This document shows positions 1,482-63,099 of a stretch of 64,000 bases of DNA, in pieces. This stretch comes from Syntrophomonadaceae bacterium (GTDB lineage Bacteria > Bacillota > Syntrophomonadia > Syntrophomonadales > Syntrophomonadaceae), in the NCBI GenBank assembly GCA_012520725.1, contig JAAYNQ010000067.1:1-64000 (forward strand), written 5' to 3'. The translations under genes were made by a program, and so were the position numbers. The notes under the pieces are model-generated. The model saw nothing but the letters and a program-made list of their open reading frames with translations. It was not told where the DNA came from and did not search any database. Within the stretch, counting starts at the first letter, position 1. Each line of letters begins with the position of its first letter.

Positions 1482-3008
1482 TTGAAAAGAACTCCTGTAA
1501 TAGAAATGAAAGGAATAAGCAAGCGTTTTCCTGGAGTAGTGGCTAATGACAATATCAGCTTCCGGGTTTATCCTGGGGAAATTCATGCCCTCTTAGGGGA
1601 AAACGGAGCCGGCAAATCCACTTTGATGAGTATCCTAGCCGGCTTATACCGGCCGGATAATGGGATCATTAAGGTGAAAGGGAAGGTAGTTCGGCTGGAT
1701 TCTCCTCGCAAAGCTCTGGAGGCAGGCATCGGTATGATCTACCAGCATTTTAGGTTGATAGAGAAGTTTACCGTAGCAGAAAATATTGTATTGGGAGCTC
1801 CCCATAGCCCGGCTAAAATAAAGCGGGAACTGATAGAAAGGGAGACGGAAAAAATATCCCAAAACTATGGTTTGACTATTAATCCGGGAGCCCGGGTACA
1901 TCAACTCTCCCTGGGTGAACAGCAGCGGGTGGAGATCATAAAGATGCTGTACCGGGGCTGTGAGGTACTGATAATGGATGAGCCTACCACGGTCCTTACT
2001 CCTGGTGAGGTCAAGGAATTATTCCAGATATTACGAGCTATGAGCAGACAGGGTAAATGTATTGTATTGATTACCCATAAATTGAACGAGGTTATGGAAA
2101 TAGCTGATTATGTTACGGTATTGCGGCGGGGCCGGGTGGTGGGTGAAGATAGAATTGAGAACCTGGATGAAAGCCGCTTAACCCGGATGATGGTGGCCCG
2201 GGAGGTGGAGTATTCCCAGGTGCAAAGAGATAAAGCTCCAGGTCAGGTGATATTGAATGTAGACCGACTTAAGGTTCGGGGAGATTTGGGACATCTGGCG
2301 GTGAAAGAGGCCAGCTTTGATTTGCGCCAGGGAGAAATTATGGCCATTGCAGGGGTAGCAGGTAACGGACAAAAGGAATTAGTGGAAGCTTTGGCCGGAA
2401 TTCGTCCTTCCTCCGGCAGTATAGAATACCAGGGAGAAGAAATAGCTCATCTTAAGGTAAGACAGAGAATAAGCCTAGGCATTAATATGGTTCCCGAGGA
2501 TCGTATAGGTACTGGTTTGGTGCCTAACCTGAGCCTTATCGACAACAGCATTTTGCGCAATTATTATAAGGAAGAGTTCCTCAGCAGCTTTTTTATTGAT
2601 TATAAGAAGGTAAGACGTTATACGGAAGGAATAGTAGATAAATACAATGTTTATTTTTCTGATTTAAAGCATCCGGTTAATTACCTGTCCGGGGGCAATT
2701 TGCAGAAACTGCTGTTGGGGCGGGAAATCGAACAGACGCCCAGAGTGCTATTGGCCTCTTATCCGGTCAGGGGGTTGGATGTGGCAGCGGCGGAGGATAT
2801 TTATGGCTTGTTACTGAAAGAAAGGGAAAAGGGAACTGCTATTTTACTGGTCCTGGAGGACCTGGAGGATATATTTAGGATTGCGGATAGAGTAGCGGTA
2901 ATGTATCAGGGCAGTATATCGGGGATATTGGAGGTTAATAAAACCTCCATAGAGGAGATTGGATCACTTATGGTAGGAGCCCAGTTGACAGGAGTAGAAA
3001 ATGGCTAA
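1482..3008 (+). CDS. Nucleoside/sugar-type ABC transporter ATP-binding protein (two ABC domains)
   Basis: Energising subunit of the importer, of the YufO/NupO and RbsA-like class, with two fused ABC domains in 508 residues. The first domain has a full Walker A (GENGAGKST), the signature LSLGEQQR and Walker B MDEPT. The second has a degenerate Walker A (GVAGNGQKE) and signature LSGGNLQK, and Walker B is reduced to LLASYP, typical of the catalytically weak second half in this class. TTG start at 1482 after GGAGGG. The last 8 bases overlap the next gene, indicating translational coupling. Confidence 0.92.
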   Translation: MKRTPVIEMKGISKRFPGVVANDNISFRVYPGEIHALLGENGAGKSTLMSILAGLYRPDNGIIKVKGKVVRLDSPRKALEAGIGMIYQHFRLIEKFTVAENIVLGAPHSPAKIKRELIERETEKISQNYGLTINPGARVHQLSLGEQQRVEIIKMLYRGCEVLIMDEPTTVLTPGEVKELFQILRAMSRQGKCIVLITHKLNEVMEIADYVTVLRRGRVVGEDRIENLDESRLTRMMVAREVEYSQVQRDKAPGQVILNVDRLKVRGDLGHLAVKEASFDLRQGEIMAIAGVAGNGQKELVEALAGIRPSSGSIEYQGEEIAHLKVRQRISLGINMVPEDRIGTGLVPNLSLIDNSILRNYYKEEFLSSFFIDYKKVRRYTEGIVDKYNVYFSDLKHPVNYLSGGNLQKLLLGREIEQTPRVLLASYPVRGLDVAAAEDIYGLLLKEREKGTAILLVLEDLEDIFRIADRVAVMYQGSISGILEVNKTSIEEIGSLMVGAQLTGVENG

Positions 3009-4071: not shown

Positions 4072-5000
4072 TGGATATTAATGCCTGGACGGCCTTGCTG
4101 GCCGCCACCATAGTGGCAGGTACCCCCATTTTGTTCGCGGCCGCTGGAGAACTGCTGGCGGAAAGGTCAGGGATACTTAACCTGGGAGTAGAGGGTATGA
4201 TGCTGGTAGGTGCAGCCCTGGGTTTTATCGTCACCGTTAATACGGGTAATCATTGCTTAGGCCTGCTGGCAGCTCTGGCCGGGGGAGGTAGTATGGCTGC
4301 CATACATGCCCTGGTCACGGTTAGTCTGAGGGGCAATCAAGTGGTAAGCGGTTTGGCATTGACTATTTTCGGCAGTGGTTTTAGCGGTTTCCTGGGAAAA
4401 AGTTATCAGGGTATACCAATGAACTATGGCTTTAAATCCTTAAATATACCGTTTTTGTCTGATCTGCCCTATGTAGGTCCAGTGTTTTTTCGTCATGATA
4501 TACTGGTATACTTGTCGGTACTACTGGCTATTTTAATGTGGTATCTGCTTTTCCAAACCAAGTGGGGGCTGGCTATTCGCTCGGTAGGAGAAAACCCCCA
4601 GGCAGCAGATGCCGTGGGTATTGATGTCTCCCGGATTCGATATCTGTGTACAATAGTTGGAGGAATGATGGCGGGATTGGGAGGAGCTTATATATCCCTG
4701 GTTTATGCTCCCACCTGGCAGGAAAATATGACTGCCGGAAGGGGATGGATTGCTGTTGCCTTAGTCATCTTTGCTCTCTGGAACCCTACCCGGGCTATTT
4801 TGGGCGCTTATCTTTTTGGAGGGGTGGAAGCCCTAACCTTCCGTTTGCAGACCATAGGTATTAACCTCTCTTCTTTTTTCCTGGTTATGTTCCCCTATCT
4901 GGTAACCATATTGGTGCTGGTACTGGTAACCATTAGGCGGCGTCAAGATGCAGGTGCTCCCCAGGCTCTCAGTATGGCCTATGACCGGGAAGAACGATGA
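4071..5000 (+). CDS. ABC transporter permease, nucleoside type (second)
   Basis: Second membrane subunit (YufQ/NupQ-like), 309 residues, mostly hydrophobic. The signature LNLGVEGMMLVGA is seen near residue 38, and SVGENPQAADAVGID is a family-typical cytoplasmic loop that contacts the ATPase. It overlaps the previous gene by one base. The short hydrophilic tail is rich in Arg and Glu. It closes the importer operon; the following 109 bp carry no clear terminator. Confidence 0.9.
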   Translation: MDINAWTALLAATIVAGTPILFAAAGELLAERSGILNLGVEGMMLVGAALGFIVTVNTGNHCLGLLAALAGGGSMAAIHALVTVSLRGNQVVSGLALTIFGSGFSGFLGKSYQGIPMNYGFKSLNIPFLSDLPYVGPVFFRHDILVYLSVLLAILMWYLLFQTKWGLAIRSVGENPQAADAVGIDVSRIRYLCTIVGGMMAGLGGAYISLVYAPTWQENMTAGRGWIAVALVIFALWNPTRAILGAYLFGGVEALTFRLQTIGINLSSFFLVMFPYLVTILVLVLVTIRRRQDAGAPQALSMAYDREER

Positions 5001-22684: not shown

Positions 22685-23587
22685 ATGATAAATACTGGAA
22701 GTTTCCTAAATCAACTCAAGGTTCGAAAAGAATATGTGGAAAGATGTTTGATGGAGTTTTTGCCTCCAGCCAGCACTTATCCCCCCCTAATTCATGAAGC
22801 TATGCATTATGCCGTATTTAATGGGGGGAAAAGGCTCAGGCCCATTATGGTTTTTGAAGGAGCCGTTTTGGGGGGAGCGGATAAGGAGCAGGTGATTCCT
22901 GCGGCTTGTGCCCTGGAGTTGATTCATAGCTATTCATTGGTTCACGATGATCTGCCGGCTATGGATAATGATGAAATGCGCCGGGGGAAGCCCACCTGTC
23001 ATATAGTATACGGAGAGGCCAATGCCATTTTGACCGGGGATGCTCTTTTGACCGCCGCTTTTGAGTTGCTGGCAGAAAACGCCAGGGTAGCTAGGGTTAA
23101 GGCCGAAAATCTACTTCGAGCTATTCAAACCGTGGCTATGGCAGCCGGGAGCAGGGGAATGATTGGGGGGCAGGTACTGGATCTCCAGTCAGAAGGGGTT
23201 GAATTGGATTTTTCAACCCTGGAAAAACTGCATAGTCTAAAGACCGGGCAGCTATTTCGAGCCGCTTTAACTACCGGAGCTATTCTAAGTGGTATGGAGG
23301 AAGCAGGAATTGCAGCTTTGGATGAATATGCCAAGAGTTTTGGTATGGCTTTTCAGATTACCGATGACATACTTGATGTAACAGGCAATCAGGATTTGAT
23401 TGGGAAACCACTGGGAAGCGATGAAAAAAACCACAAAAGCACCTATGTTAGTCTCTTGGGAATGGACCAATCTTGCAGGTTGGCCCAGGATGCGGTGGAA
23501 TCCTGCCTGAAGGCCTTGAATTATTTTGGTCCTGAGGCTGACTTTTTAAGAGAATTGGCTTCTTATACCTTAAATAGACAAAATTAG
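22685..23587 (+). CDS. ispA: Polyprenyl (farnesyl) diphosphate synthase
   Basis: Trans-prenyltransferase that condenses isopentenyl diphosphate with allylic diphosphates to C15 or longer products. The 300-residue protein has the first Asp-rich motif DDLPAMDNDEMRRG and the second DDILD near residue 220, and GGKRLRP near the N-terminus. The two residues between the Asp pairs are LP, as in bacterial FPP synthases. It lies just upstream of the OLE RNA and one gene before dxs, a conserved isoprenoid cluster. Confidence 0.94.
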   Translation: MINTGSFLNQLKVRKEYVERCLMEFLPPASTYPPLIHEAMHYAVFNGGKRLRPIMVFEGAVLGGADKEQVIPAACALELIHSYSLVHDDLPAMDNDEMRRGKPTCHIVYGEANAILTGDALLTAAFELLAENARVARVKAENLLRAIQTVAMAAGSRGMIGGQVLDLQSEGVELDFSTLEKLHSLKTGQLFRAALTTGAILSGMEEAGIAALDEYAKSFGMAFQITDDILDVTGNQDLIGKPLGSDEKNHKSTYVSLLGMDQSCRLAQDAVESCLKALNYFGPEADFLRELASYTLNRQN

Positions 23588-23698
23588 TTTACCCGCCTTG
23601 CCCCCAAGTTCATAAAAATGGCTTATGGCTCTTGGATTTATATAAAAGATCCCCTTTTCAATGACTGGCATGGAGGCCCTATGCTATGTTATAATCAT

Positions 23699-24300
23699 GG
23701 ATGAATAGGAAACTGGCAAAAGGTTGCAGTATTCTAGTCAGCCCTATTGGTTTTGAAGACGGGGCTAAAAATCCGTTAAGGGCACATCGATGAAGCTTCT
23801 GGTGTTGGCTTTTGACGCCCAGTCGGGGGTCATCGCTGGGAGTTAAGGGTCTGGGGGCTATCCGCAAAGGCATGCGGTGATGACCCTCAAATCCGTGGAG
23901 GCTCATTTCTTAGCTTAAGGAATGAGAAAACCTGCATTCCGGTAGAAGCTGGGTGCAGTGTAGCCTGCCTTGAGTGGAGGCGGCGAATGAACGTAAGAAG
24001 GGCGATTTTTCCTCGGCCAAGGAACCGTCGTCTGTTCTGAAACCGTCGGCTGCAAAAGAGGCTAGAAGCTGGTGTGGGCTGTTGAGGAAAACTCCTAGAC
24101 TGAATGCAACTTGCGCATGGTTTATCGAGGATTAAAGTGTGTACTTAGTGGTAATCCAGTTCTATTTTCGGTGACGAAATAGGGTGGACGTAAAGGGAAA
24201 CCGCCCTTTTGGCAACAAAAGGGAGATCTGCCGGGAAAACCTGCTGGACCTATGTCGCAGCGTTTACTCGATGAACAACCTTTTGCCAGGCCCGTTTTAC
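23699..24300 (+). ncRNA. ole: OLE RNA (ornate large extremophilic RNA)
   Basis: About 600 nt of structured, non-coding sequence between ispA and a membrane protein gene, the exact setting of OLE RNA in other Firmicutes. The ends form a perfect 14-bp closing helix: CTGGCAAAAGGTTG (23713-23726) with CAACCTTTTGCCAG (24276-24289). Inside are GNRA-capped hairpins, for example CCCTTTTG-GCAA-CAAAAGGG (24204-24223) and one capped by GTGA near 24170. TATAAT at 23690-23695 may be its own -10. The downstream gene encodes the OLE-associated protein OapA, and dxs follows. The identification rests on context, length and structure; the exact ends are estimates. Confidence 0.85.
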
Positions 24301-24317
24301 TGGGGGATATTTAAGAG

Positions 24318-24890
24318 TTGAGTGGCCAGACTAAAAAAAACATATTGATATCTGGATTTCTAGTAGCTTTTATCACATTCTTTATGGCTCTTTTGGTCAG
24401 CCTGGGGTCAGAGGCTCTGGTAAGAGCTGTAAACAATGTGCTGGTGGCATTAATATTGCTGCTGGCTATTATTTTTCTGGGGATATTTTTTGATATAATA
24501 GGAACTGCAGCGACTGCTGCTGAATTGCCGCCTTTTAATGCCAGGGCGGCTAAAAAAATATTTGGAGCCAAACAAGGGGTAAGACTGATTCATAATGCAG
24601 ATATAGTTGCCAACTTCTGCAATGATGTTGTTGGTGATATAGCAGGAACCCTAAGTGGAGCTATTGGAGCCGGCATAGTAATTACTTTAATCCAGCAGAT
24701 TCCTGCTGCCGATGTGGTTTTGGCGGGAGCGGTGATGACCAGCATGATTGCTGCCCTAACCGTGGGTGGAAAAGCCATAGGAAAAAAAATCGCGGTGAGA
24801 AATGCCGATAGTATAATATTTAAAGCCGCTAAAATAGTAGCCTGGGGAGAAGAGCTTAGCGGCCTGGAATTATTTAAGAGTAGAAAGTGA
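24318..24890 (+). CDS. oapA: OLE-associated membrane protein OapA
   Basis: Membrane protein of 190 residues with about four hydrophobic segments (around 8-30, 40-60, 115-132 and 140-155). Between them lies a loop with DIIGTAATAAELPPFNARA and HNADIVANFCNDVVGDIAG, rich in conserved polar residues. In Bacillus halodurans OapA binds OLE RNA and places the complex at the membrane; loss affects cold, alcohol and Mg2+-related stress. It starts at TTG 24318, 28 bases after the OLE closing helix, with GGGGGA upstream. The stop overlaps an alternative dxs start. Confidence 0.85.
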   Translation: MSGQTKKNILISGFLVAFITFFMALLVSLGSEALVRAVNNVLVALILLLAIIFLGIFFDIIGTAATAAELPPFNARAAKKIFGAKQGVRLIHNADIVANFCNDVVGDIAGTLSGAIGAGIVITLIQQIPAADVVLAGAVMTSMIAALTVGGKAIGKKIAVRNADSIIFKAAKIVAWGEELSGLELFKSRK

Positions 24891-24898
24891 GTCTTATT

Positions 24899-26815
24899 AT
24901 GCCAGGAATACTTGAAAGGGTTAAATGCTCCGAGGACTTAAAAAAATTAACTATCAAGGAAATGAACGTCTTGGCAGCTGAAATAAGAGAGTTGCTGATA
25001 ACCAGCGTATCCCGCTGTGGAGGGCACCTGGCTCCTAATTTAGGGGTAGTTGAATTGAGCATAGCCTTACACTATGTTTTCAATACCGCCCAGGACCGGG
25101 TAATTTGGGATGTAGGTCACCAGAGTTATGTACATAAAATCCTTACCGGGCGTAAAGACCTTATGTCCACTTTAAGACAATACGGAGGTTTAAGCGGATT
25201 TCCCAAAAGCGAAGAATCAATCCACGATGCCTTTAACACTGGTCACAGTAGCACCTCCATTTCTGCCGCTCTAGGCATGGCTGTGGCTCGGGATTTGCAA
25301 GAAGAGGATTACTCAGTGGTAGCTGTAATAGGCGACGGAGCCTTAACCGGTGGTATGGCCTTCGAGGCCTTAAACCATGCCGGAATTGAGGGGCGCGATC
25401 TGATAGTGGTTCTAAATGACAATGAAATGTCCATTTCAAAAAATGTTGGAGCCATGTCCGGCTACTTGAACCGACTACGTACAGATCCATCCTATTCCCG
25501 CACCAAGGAGGAAATCGAGCACCATCTAATGCGGATTCCCGGTATCGGTCCCAACATTGCCCGGGCGGCCGGAAAATTCAAAGATTTGATAAAGTATTTG
25601 ATGGTGCCCGGGATCTGGTTTGAAGAACTGGGTTTTACTTATATAGGACCGGTGAACGGTCACGATTTGGATGAGCTTTTGCCAGTGCTGAAAAATGCCA
25701 GAAGAATGAAGGGGCCCATTTTTATACACGTGATAACCGAAAAAGGACGAGGATATGAGCCTGCTCGCCAGGATCCAGGAACCTTTCATGGGGTAGGGCC
25801 TTTTGATATTAGCACTGGTAAGACTTTTAAGAAAGCCATTAAAACCTATACTGAGATATTTGGAGAATATATGGTAGAGCGGGCCCGGACTGACAGCAAG
25901 CTGGTAACCATCACGGCGGCTATGGCTAATGGCACTGGATTAAGCGAATTTGCCTGCTGTTATCCGGAGCGCTTTTTCGATACCGGTATATGTGAGCAGC
26001 ATGCGGTTACCCTGGCCGCAGGTATGGCTAAAGCTGGGCTTAGGCCGGTAGTAGCTATCTATTCCACCTTTTTGCAGCGAGCCTATGACCAGATAATCCA
26101 CGATGTAGCCCTGCAAAGACTACCGGTGATTTTTGCTATTGACCGGGCTGGCCTGGTAGGGGAAGATGGACCAACTCACCACGGGGTTTTCGATTTGGCC
26201 TATTTGAGAAGCATTCCGGAGTTAACTTTAATGGCTCCGTCTAATGAAAACGAACTACTGGACATGCTCCATACTGCATTCACCATCAATGGACCAGTTG
26301 CCATACGTTACCCACGCGGTGCCGGGGAAGGGGTAGAGATAAGCCGGACCAGGCAGCTCTTGCCGGTGGGGGAAGCCCATCTAATGAAAAAGGGCCAGGA
26401 TTTAGCTATTATGGCCATTGGCCGGGGGGTAAGCATAGCCTGCCAAGTAGCCCGCCTATTAGAACAAAAAGGAATCAGCACTCTCCTGGTGGATGCCAGA
26501 TTTGTTAAACCCCTGGATATTTCTATGATTACTGATATTGGGGCTAAATACCAGAGATTGGTCACCATTGAAGACAATTGTATAAAGGGAGGCTTTGGTA
26601 GCGCCGTTTTGGAAGCTTTGGCCGAAACCAAGCAGCAGCTTGATGTATTGCGTATAGGGATACCGGATGAATTTATTGAACATGGAAAAGTGGAACTATT
26701 GTTTAACTACTTGGATATGGATGAGGTATCCATAGTGGAAAGCATTATAAATAAATGGCCAGAACTATTGAGTTATAGCAGGGAATTGGGGTTGTTGAAT
26801 TTTGGGCAAAATTAG
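24899..26815 (+). CDS. dxs: 1-deoxy-D-xylulose-5-phosphate synthase
   Basis: Thiamine-diphosphate enzyme for the first step of the MEP isoprenoid pathway: pyruvate plus glyceraldehyde-3-phosphate to DXP. The 638-residue protein shows the cofactor motif GDGALTGGMAFEALNHAG, the N-terminal GGHLAPNLGVVELSIALH, and the central DRAGLVGEDGPTHHG. ATG 24899 is chosen by family alignment; GTG 24887, overlapping oapA, is an alternative because neither has a strong Shine-Dalgarno. The gene overlaps the next by 14 bases. Confidence 0.94.
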   Translation: MPGILERVKCSEDLKKLTIKEMNVLAAEIRELLITSVSRCGGHLAPNLGVVELSIALHYVFNTAQDRVIWDVGHQSYVHKILTGRKDLMSTLRQYGGLSGFPKSEESIHDAFNTGHSSTSISAALGMAVARDLQEEDYSVVAVIGDGALTGGMAFEALNHAGIEGRDLIVVLNDNEMSISKNVGAMSGYLNRLRTDPSYSRTKEEIEHHLMRIPGIGPNIARAAGKFKDLIKYLMVPGIWFEELGFTYIGPVNGHDLDELLPVLKNARRMKGPIFIHVITEKGRGYEPARQDPGTFHGVGPFDISTGKTFKKAIKTYTEIFGEYMVERARTDSKLVTITAAMANGTGLSEFACCYPERFFDTGICEQHAVTLAAGMAKAGLRPVVAIYSTFLQRAYDQIIHDVALQRLPVIFAIDRAGLVGEDGPTHHGVFDLAYLRSIPELTLMAPSNENELLDMLHTAFTINGPVAIRYPRGAGEGVEISRTRQLLPVGEAHLMKKGQDLAIMAIGRGVSIACQVARLLEQKGISTLLVDARFVKPLDISMITDIGAKYQRLVTIEDNCIKGGFGSAVLEALAETKQQLDVLRIGIPDEFIEHGKVELLFNYLDMDEVSIVESIINKWPELLSYSRELGLLNFGQN

Positions 26816-62940: not shown

Positions 62941-62981
62941 TAAAATAATAAAACTGCTTAAAACCCGGGTAATAAGCAGTT
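62941..62981 (-). terminator. Terminator controlled by the TPP riboswitch
   Basis: On the minus strand AACTGCTTA and TAAGCAGTT form a perfect 9-bp stem (plus coordinates 62973-62981 and 62952-62960), followed by TTATTATTTT. It lies between the aptamer and the first gene, as expected for transcription attenuation. Confidence 0.85.
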
Positions 62982-62993
62982 AAGGTAAGAAAT

Positions 62994-63083
62994 ATGTTTC
63001 CTACGCTGGAATTACCCAGATCAGGTTCCAGGGTAAGGACACCTTTTTTGTCCACTCTCAGCCGGATTGGTCCAGCTCCCCCC
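62994..63083 (-). promoter_or_regulatory. TPP riboswitch (THI element)
   Basis: The minus strand reads the conserved TPP aptamer: GGGGAGCT at the 5' end, CTGAGAG in the P3 side, then ACCCTGGAACCTGATCTGG and TAATTCCAGCGTAGGAA. All highly conserved aptamer positions I can check are present. It controls the downstream importer operon by the adjoining terminator. Confidence 0.96.
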
Positions 63084-63099
63084 TTTTTATTTAATTGTA

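Follow-up and report, generated by a model that had tools for sequence, protein, structure and literature searches.

A canonical full-length OLE RNA with its membrane partner OapA between ispA and dxs in a Syntrophomonadaceae genome

OLE RNA is among the largest structured bacterial RNAs, and isoprenoid, DNA-repair and sporulation genes are the setting reported around its gene, ole, in the literature. A characteristic expected of its partner OapA is that it attaches to P2/P4a of the RNA and recruits OLE to the membrane. That dxs adjoins ole and oapA (PMC10898510) and that OapA is related to MpfA (PMC11332333) have also been described. The locus analysed here lies in a 64,000-nt stretch of DNA from a Syntrophomonadaceae bacterium (the window; Table 1). 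It is real and of a known kind: the RNA class, the partner, the dxs adjacency and the anticorrelation with MpfA are all published. Since class, partner and dxs adjacency were already in the literature, the novelty of the locus is lower than the original prediction implied. Firm examples of OLE with all partner genes are useful because the biochemical function of this RNA is unproven. We have very little doubt that the locus represents a canonical full-length OLE RNA with its obligate membrane partner OapA and belongs to the OLE ribonucleoprotein (RNP) family.

Table 1. Features of the ole locus, in window coordinates unless stated otherwise
Feature	Position	Strand	Basis
ispA (farnesyl diphosphate synthase)	22685..23587	+	NF045485, 355.3 bits, over cut-off
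Putative ole promoter, extended -10 TGTTATAAT	23687..23695	+	Sequence; position conserved across loci
OLE RNA (RF01071), full length	23705..24298	+	cmscan, 474.7 bits, model 1-616/616
Closing helix P1, 5' arm, 14 bp, CTGGCAAAAGGTTG	23713..23726	+	Perfect complement of 24276-24289
P3/P3.1, 5' strand	23739..23754	+	Duplex with 24065-24081
A-rich P4 loop, AAAAA	23767..23771	+	Identical to Rfam consensus
GCCCA hairpin loop	23817..23821	+	Sequence, Rfam alignment
Palindromic GGCC, P9 hairpin loop	24015..24018	+	Sequence, Rfam alignment
P3/P3.1, 3' strand	24065..24081	+	Duplex with 23739-23754
GUGA hairpin cap (GNRA)	24171-24174	+	Sequence; hairpin paired in Rfam alignment
GCAA-capped 8-bp hairpin, P12.2/P13 region	24204..24223	+	Sequence; paired in Rfam alignment
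Closing helix P1, 3' arm, CAACCTTTTGCCAG	24276..24289	+	Pairs with 23713-23726
Shine-Dalgarno-like GGGGGA for oapA	24302..24307	+	10 nt ahead of TTG start
oapA, 190-aa OLE-associated protein A	24318..24890	+	Coding 24318-24887 plus stop; TTG start
DxxxD motif (DVVGD)	OapA residues 103-107		Sequence
dxs	24887..26815	+	TIGR00204, 852.5 bits; start overlaps oapA stop by 4 nt

Identity and architecture of the RNA

The OLE assignment, first made from the letters of the DNA, was borne out by the Rfam covariance model RF01071, which is covered in its entirety by the window RNA and matches it with 474.7 bits (E 3.4e-136) against a gathering score of 50 bits. The genome contains one copy. In a published survey, OLE RNAs with at least 390 bits in the survey's own model were counted as 'full-length' (PMC11332333); the window RNA is well above this value, but was scored with the Rfam model. 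The stretch of about 600 nt is also non-coding, as had been supposed: no sizeable plus-strand ORF was found between the end of ispA and the start of oapA (23587-24318). An ORF on the minus strand (23679-23906), which overlaps OLE, was judged to be a chance ORF. The fold energy of the 590-nt RNA lies 5.45 standard deviations below that of dinucleotide shuffles, and none of 100 shuffles was equally low.

The conservation of helices was assessed in 90 distinct OLE loci of Syntrophomonadaceae, other Clostridia, and Bacillaceae. The perfect 14-bp closing helix noticed at the outset is P1, which is included in the published OLE model (PMC12265935) and whose columns are unpaired in the Rfam structure line. 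According to a hand count from the listing, about 82 of the 90 loci have P1 in the same register, with 72 distinct 5' arms among them and arm pairs as different as CTGGCAAAAGGTTG/CAACCTTTTGCCAG, GGTGGGTGGTG/TACCACCCACC, and AAAGGCAAAGTGGTG/TACCACTTTGCCTTT. This register and the diversity of the arms are better evidence for P1 than partner swapping, a weak control here (912 of 1800 swapped pairs still reach at least 8 bp) because close relatives have identical arms. For P3/P3.1, which in the window RNA consists of 16 pairs with one bulged U, the mean duplex energy across the 90 loci is -19.3 with the own partner versus -12.1 with swapped partners. That P3/P3.1 crosses the membrane is a proposal from the literature and not settled; in the window RNA the duplex is long enough for such an element.

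Published dimer contacts of OLE comprise the A-rich P4 loop and a kissing-loop interaction of the P5 and P6 hairpins (PMC12286853, PMC12265935), and a symmetric kissing loop formed by the P9 loop, whose palindrome type in the window is listed in PMC12286853. The GCC of the GCCCA loop is complementary to GGC at 23869-23871. The window RNA has the published contacts at the expected model positions and would, by analogy, be able to dimerise. Both GNRA-capped hairpins of the original prediction are present, the second with its GCAA tetraloop at 24212-24215; the binding site of OapB has been mapped to P12.2/P13 (PMC9723947). The J4a/5 region, where the K-turn for OapC would lie, is conserved in the Rfam alignment.

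OapA, partner genes and transcription

The coding sequence of oapA begins 19 nt past the end of the Rfam OLE match. Its product had been proposed to be OapA, and a profile of 14 relatives, the window sequence included, agrees with this identification (E 2.0e-79). The closest named OapA is encoded by a Syntrophomonadaceae MAG (88%). Both aspartates of the DxxxD motif, D103 and D107, are invariant in 47 of 47 homologues. An AlphaFold2 model based on the alignment of these 47 sequences (pLDDT 84.0), which replaced a poor single-sequence prediction (pLDDT 60.8), is all-helical with long helices. In a Foldseek search, the top five PDB matches of the model are CNNM/CorB/CorC proteins (probability 0.95-1.00, best E only 8.8e-3), and these Mg2+ transporters are its sole high-probability matches in the PDB. 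The Pfam CNNM match is below the cut-off (E 0.0023) and the alignment profile found no match among PDB sequences, so that the relation is seen by fold search only. The predicted fold is CNNM-like, as published for OapA.

Other components of the particle are encoded elsewhere in the genome, and the idea of a complete RNA-protein unit thus holds further than the original prediction could foresee. A 107-aa OapB gene lies between adk and infA (C99:6798-7121); a search for the KOW family did not find it, and it was located by position and then by its best PDB match, 7k9b 'OLE-associated protein B' (E 1.4e-8, residues 16-67 only). OapC (94 aa, best PDB matches YbxF, E 2.3e-16) is encoded between rpoC and rpsL (C101, about 4284-4565), and a bS21 gene is present as well (C82:810-974). 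Judged by sequence, this is the full H. halodurans-type set of OLE partners: OapA, OapB, OapC/YbxF, and bS21. The genome also keeps one gene for an MpfA-type protein of 435 aa, separate from oapA, and OLE is therefore not the sole CNNM-type system of this organism.

The NF045485 and TIGR00204 assignments place OLE and oapA between ispA and dxs, where they had been predicted to lie. These genes are part of a plus-strand run of accC, nusB, folD, xseA, xseB, ispA, OLE, oapA, and dxs, followed by tlyA, nadK, argR, recN, spoIVB, and spo0A, a setting of the kind described around ole. The order ispA-OLE-oapA-dxs is common in the lineage, and oapA adjoins OLE in nearly all relatives fetched. A TPP riboswitch (RF00059, 62.6 bits) is located at 62980-63092 on the minus strand of the window.

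A conserved promoter ahead of OLE is expected, because ole of Halalkalibacterium halodurans has its own promoter (PMC9723947). From the putative extended -10 element, the transcript is predicted to start at about 23702-23704. Of the 90 OLE loci, 63 contain an exact TATAAT in the corresponding upstream slice of 48 nt, whereas each of four control slices contains it in 0-2 of about 90 loci. The extended form TGnTATAAT precedes OLE in 45 of 61 other loci having a -10-like hexamer and, among the close relatives, in 21 of 23. With six matches to TGNTATAAT in the window versus four expected, a single match means little; the evidence is the conserved position. The site is not among the matches of a sigma-70 scan, because the CTGGCA hexamer sits 19 nt from the -10 element and the scan covered spacings of 16-18 nt. 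CTGG[AC]A is found 24-25 nt before the -10 element in 11 of 23 close relatives and is possibly a lineage-specific upstream element. The recurrent ACTGG[AC]A (window about 23664-23670, roughly 18-19 nt ahead of the -10 element) differs from the usual TTGACA; the 5' arm of P1 contains the same letters again.

No terminator-like site was found on the plus strand between OLE and oapA. Given the conserved promoter-like site just upstream, OLE is probably equipped with a separate promoter, and both oapA and dxs lie further downstream. OLE need not depend on transcription of ispA, and read-through from ispA into OLE is possible. The suggested co-transcription with isoprenoid genes consequently has to be qualified: dxs is downstream of the putative OLE promoter together with oapA, and transcription from ispA is probably not required.

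Distribution, loss and the relation to MpfA

OLE was found in 51 of 61 related genomes. G011, G029, and G030 encode OapA at the very end of a contig or close to it, and OLE is probably unassembled rather than absent. Both OLE and OapA are missing in 7 of the 61 genomes, namely all four genomes of the sister family f3 (G038, G040, G042, G044) and G018, G033, and G051. The dxs gene comes directly after ispA in G033 and in those f3 genomes that were examined, and cmscan detected no OLE remnant in the f3 and G033 loci that were scanned. In the f3 loci L132, L134, L135, and L141, OLE and oapA are gone together and the surrounding operon is intact. Because family f3 keeps OapB (4/4) and OapC (3/4) without OLE, these two proteins necessarily serve further functions, in line with published work.

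An MpfA-type gene occurs in 7 of 7 genomes without OLE/OapA and in 29 of 53 carriers, a count that sets aside the decayed G059 (one-sided Fisher p 0.022, which ignores relatedness, with at most about four independent losses). MpfA is thus common among carriers, too, including the window genome. The pattern of losses agrees with the published anticorrelation of OLE and MpfA, on few independent events. All 61 genomes have at least one of the two, OLE-OapA or an MpfA-type transporter. One might speculate that, within this order and neighbouring ones, an MpfA-type transporter can stand in for the OLE-OapA particle and vice versa, an idea that we consider rather doubtful; if it is true, these syntrophs offer a natural test of the published proposal that OLE and MpfA replace each other.

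As a rival reading, OLE might chiefly serve the mRNA of oapA and dxs as a structured leader or as an element for its processing, which would regulate isoprenoid genes in cis and would not be part of a trans-acting RNP. The short distance to oapA, the lack of a detected plus-strand terminator-like site in between, and the overlap of oapA with dxs would fit such a leader, as would the two genomes of one genus (G021, G036) in which OLE directly precedes dxs and oapA is on a different contig. However, G048 and G057 have OLE on one contig and oapA, followed by dxs, on another (OapB was undetected in both), the upstream neighbour of OLE in family f2 is a different gene and not ispA, and conservation spans the whole 600 nt of the RNA. 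Moreover, genetics, localisation, and pull-down experiments in H. halodurans demonstrate an RNP function (PMC9723947). A mere leader role is hence very improbable, and OLE as part of an RNP remains the preferred reading.

The unlinked OLE of G048 (L146, G048:C1, 1947-2522, minus strand) is followed, at a distance of about 200 nt, by a c-di-AMP riboswitch (1606-1741, minus strand), which in turn precedes an NlpC/P60-like ORF. A relation between OLE and c-di-AMP has been speculated; the adjacency in G048 may be due to chance.

In G059 (L145, G059:C15), OLE (1543-2199) scores 169.9 bits, and the oapA fragments at about 2235-2529 are broken by stops. Both are apparently decaying, and a stretch of N in the sequence may explain part of the low score; OapB, OapC, and an MpfA-type gene are still present in this genome. 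Decay of the locus thus seems to occur, but that the window OLE is itself a non-functional remnant is hardly conceivable in view of its covariance score, the intact P1, P3, and dimer loops, and the intact 190-aa frame of oapA.

Proposed role and comparison with known systems

In the RNP model, transcription of OLE would most likely start at a separate promoter and continue into oapA and dxs, and the transcript would be processed to about 590 nt. The RNA may then dimerise like the published RNAs of H. halodurans and two Clostridium RNAs. Following work on H. halodurans and Clostridium, OapA, CNNM-like and devoid of CBS or CorC domains, would anchor it at the membrane, and OapB, OapC, and bS21 would fold or remodel it. 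According to published work, the particle might help the cell respond to stress related to Mg2+, cold, alcohols, or poor carbon sources. It could hence work in Mg2+/stress homeostasis and overlap in function with MpfA-type transporters. By analogy with the described systems, we lean towards such a Mg2+/stress role of the OLE particle in this organism.

The locus adds no new kind of system but is of value for comparison: the RNA retains the elements published for dimer formation and for the membrane helix, and the promoter-like site is conserved across diverse Bacillota. The clean losses, the apparently decaying copy, and the unlinked copies in close relatives could help to test the role of OLE.

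Compared with full-length OLE RNAs of the RF01071 type, the window RNA has the same P1, P3/P3.1, A-rich P4 loop, GCC/GGC loops, GGCC P9 loop, and GNRA hairpins; the hairpin near model positions 207-228 is shorter, which is no essential difference. The host is a Syntrophomonas-like syntroph and not a classical extremophile. OapA resembles its counterparts in H. halodurans and other Bacillota in size, DxxxD motif, CNNM-like predicted fold, and the position of its gene next to ole, but its gene uses a TTG start and the protein has diverged, with about 36-49% identity to homologues outside the order, Bacillaceae included. Its predicted fold is that of the membrane domain of MpfA/CorB/CorC proteins (7m1t, 7m1u, 7cff), whereas it differs from them in being without CBS and CorC_HlyC domains and in carrying the DxxxD motif.
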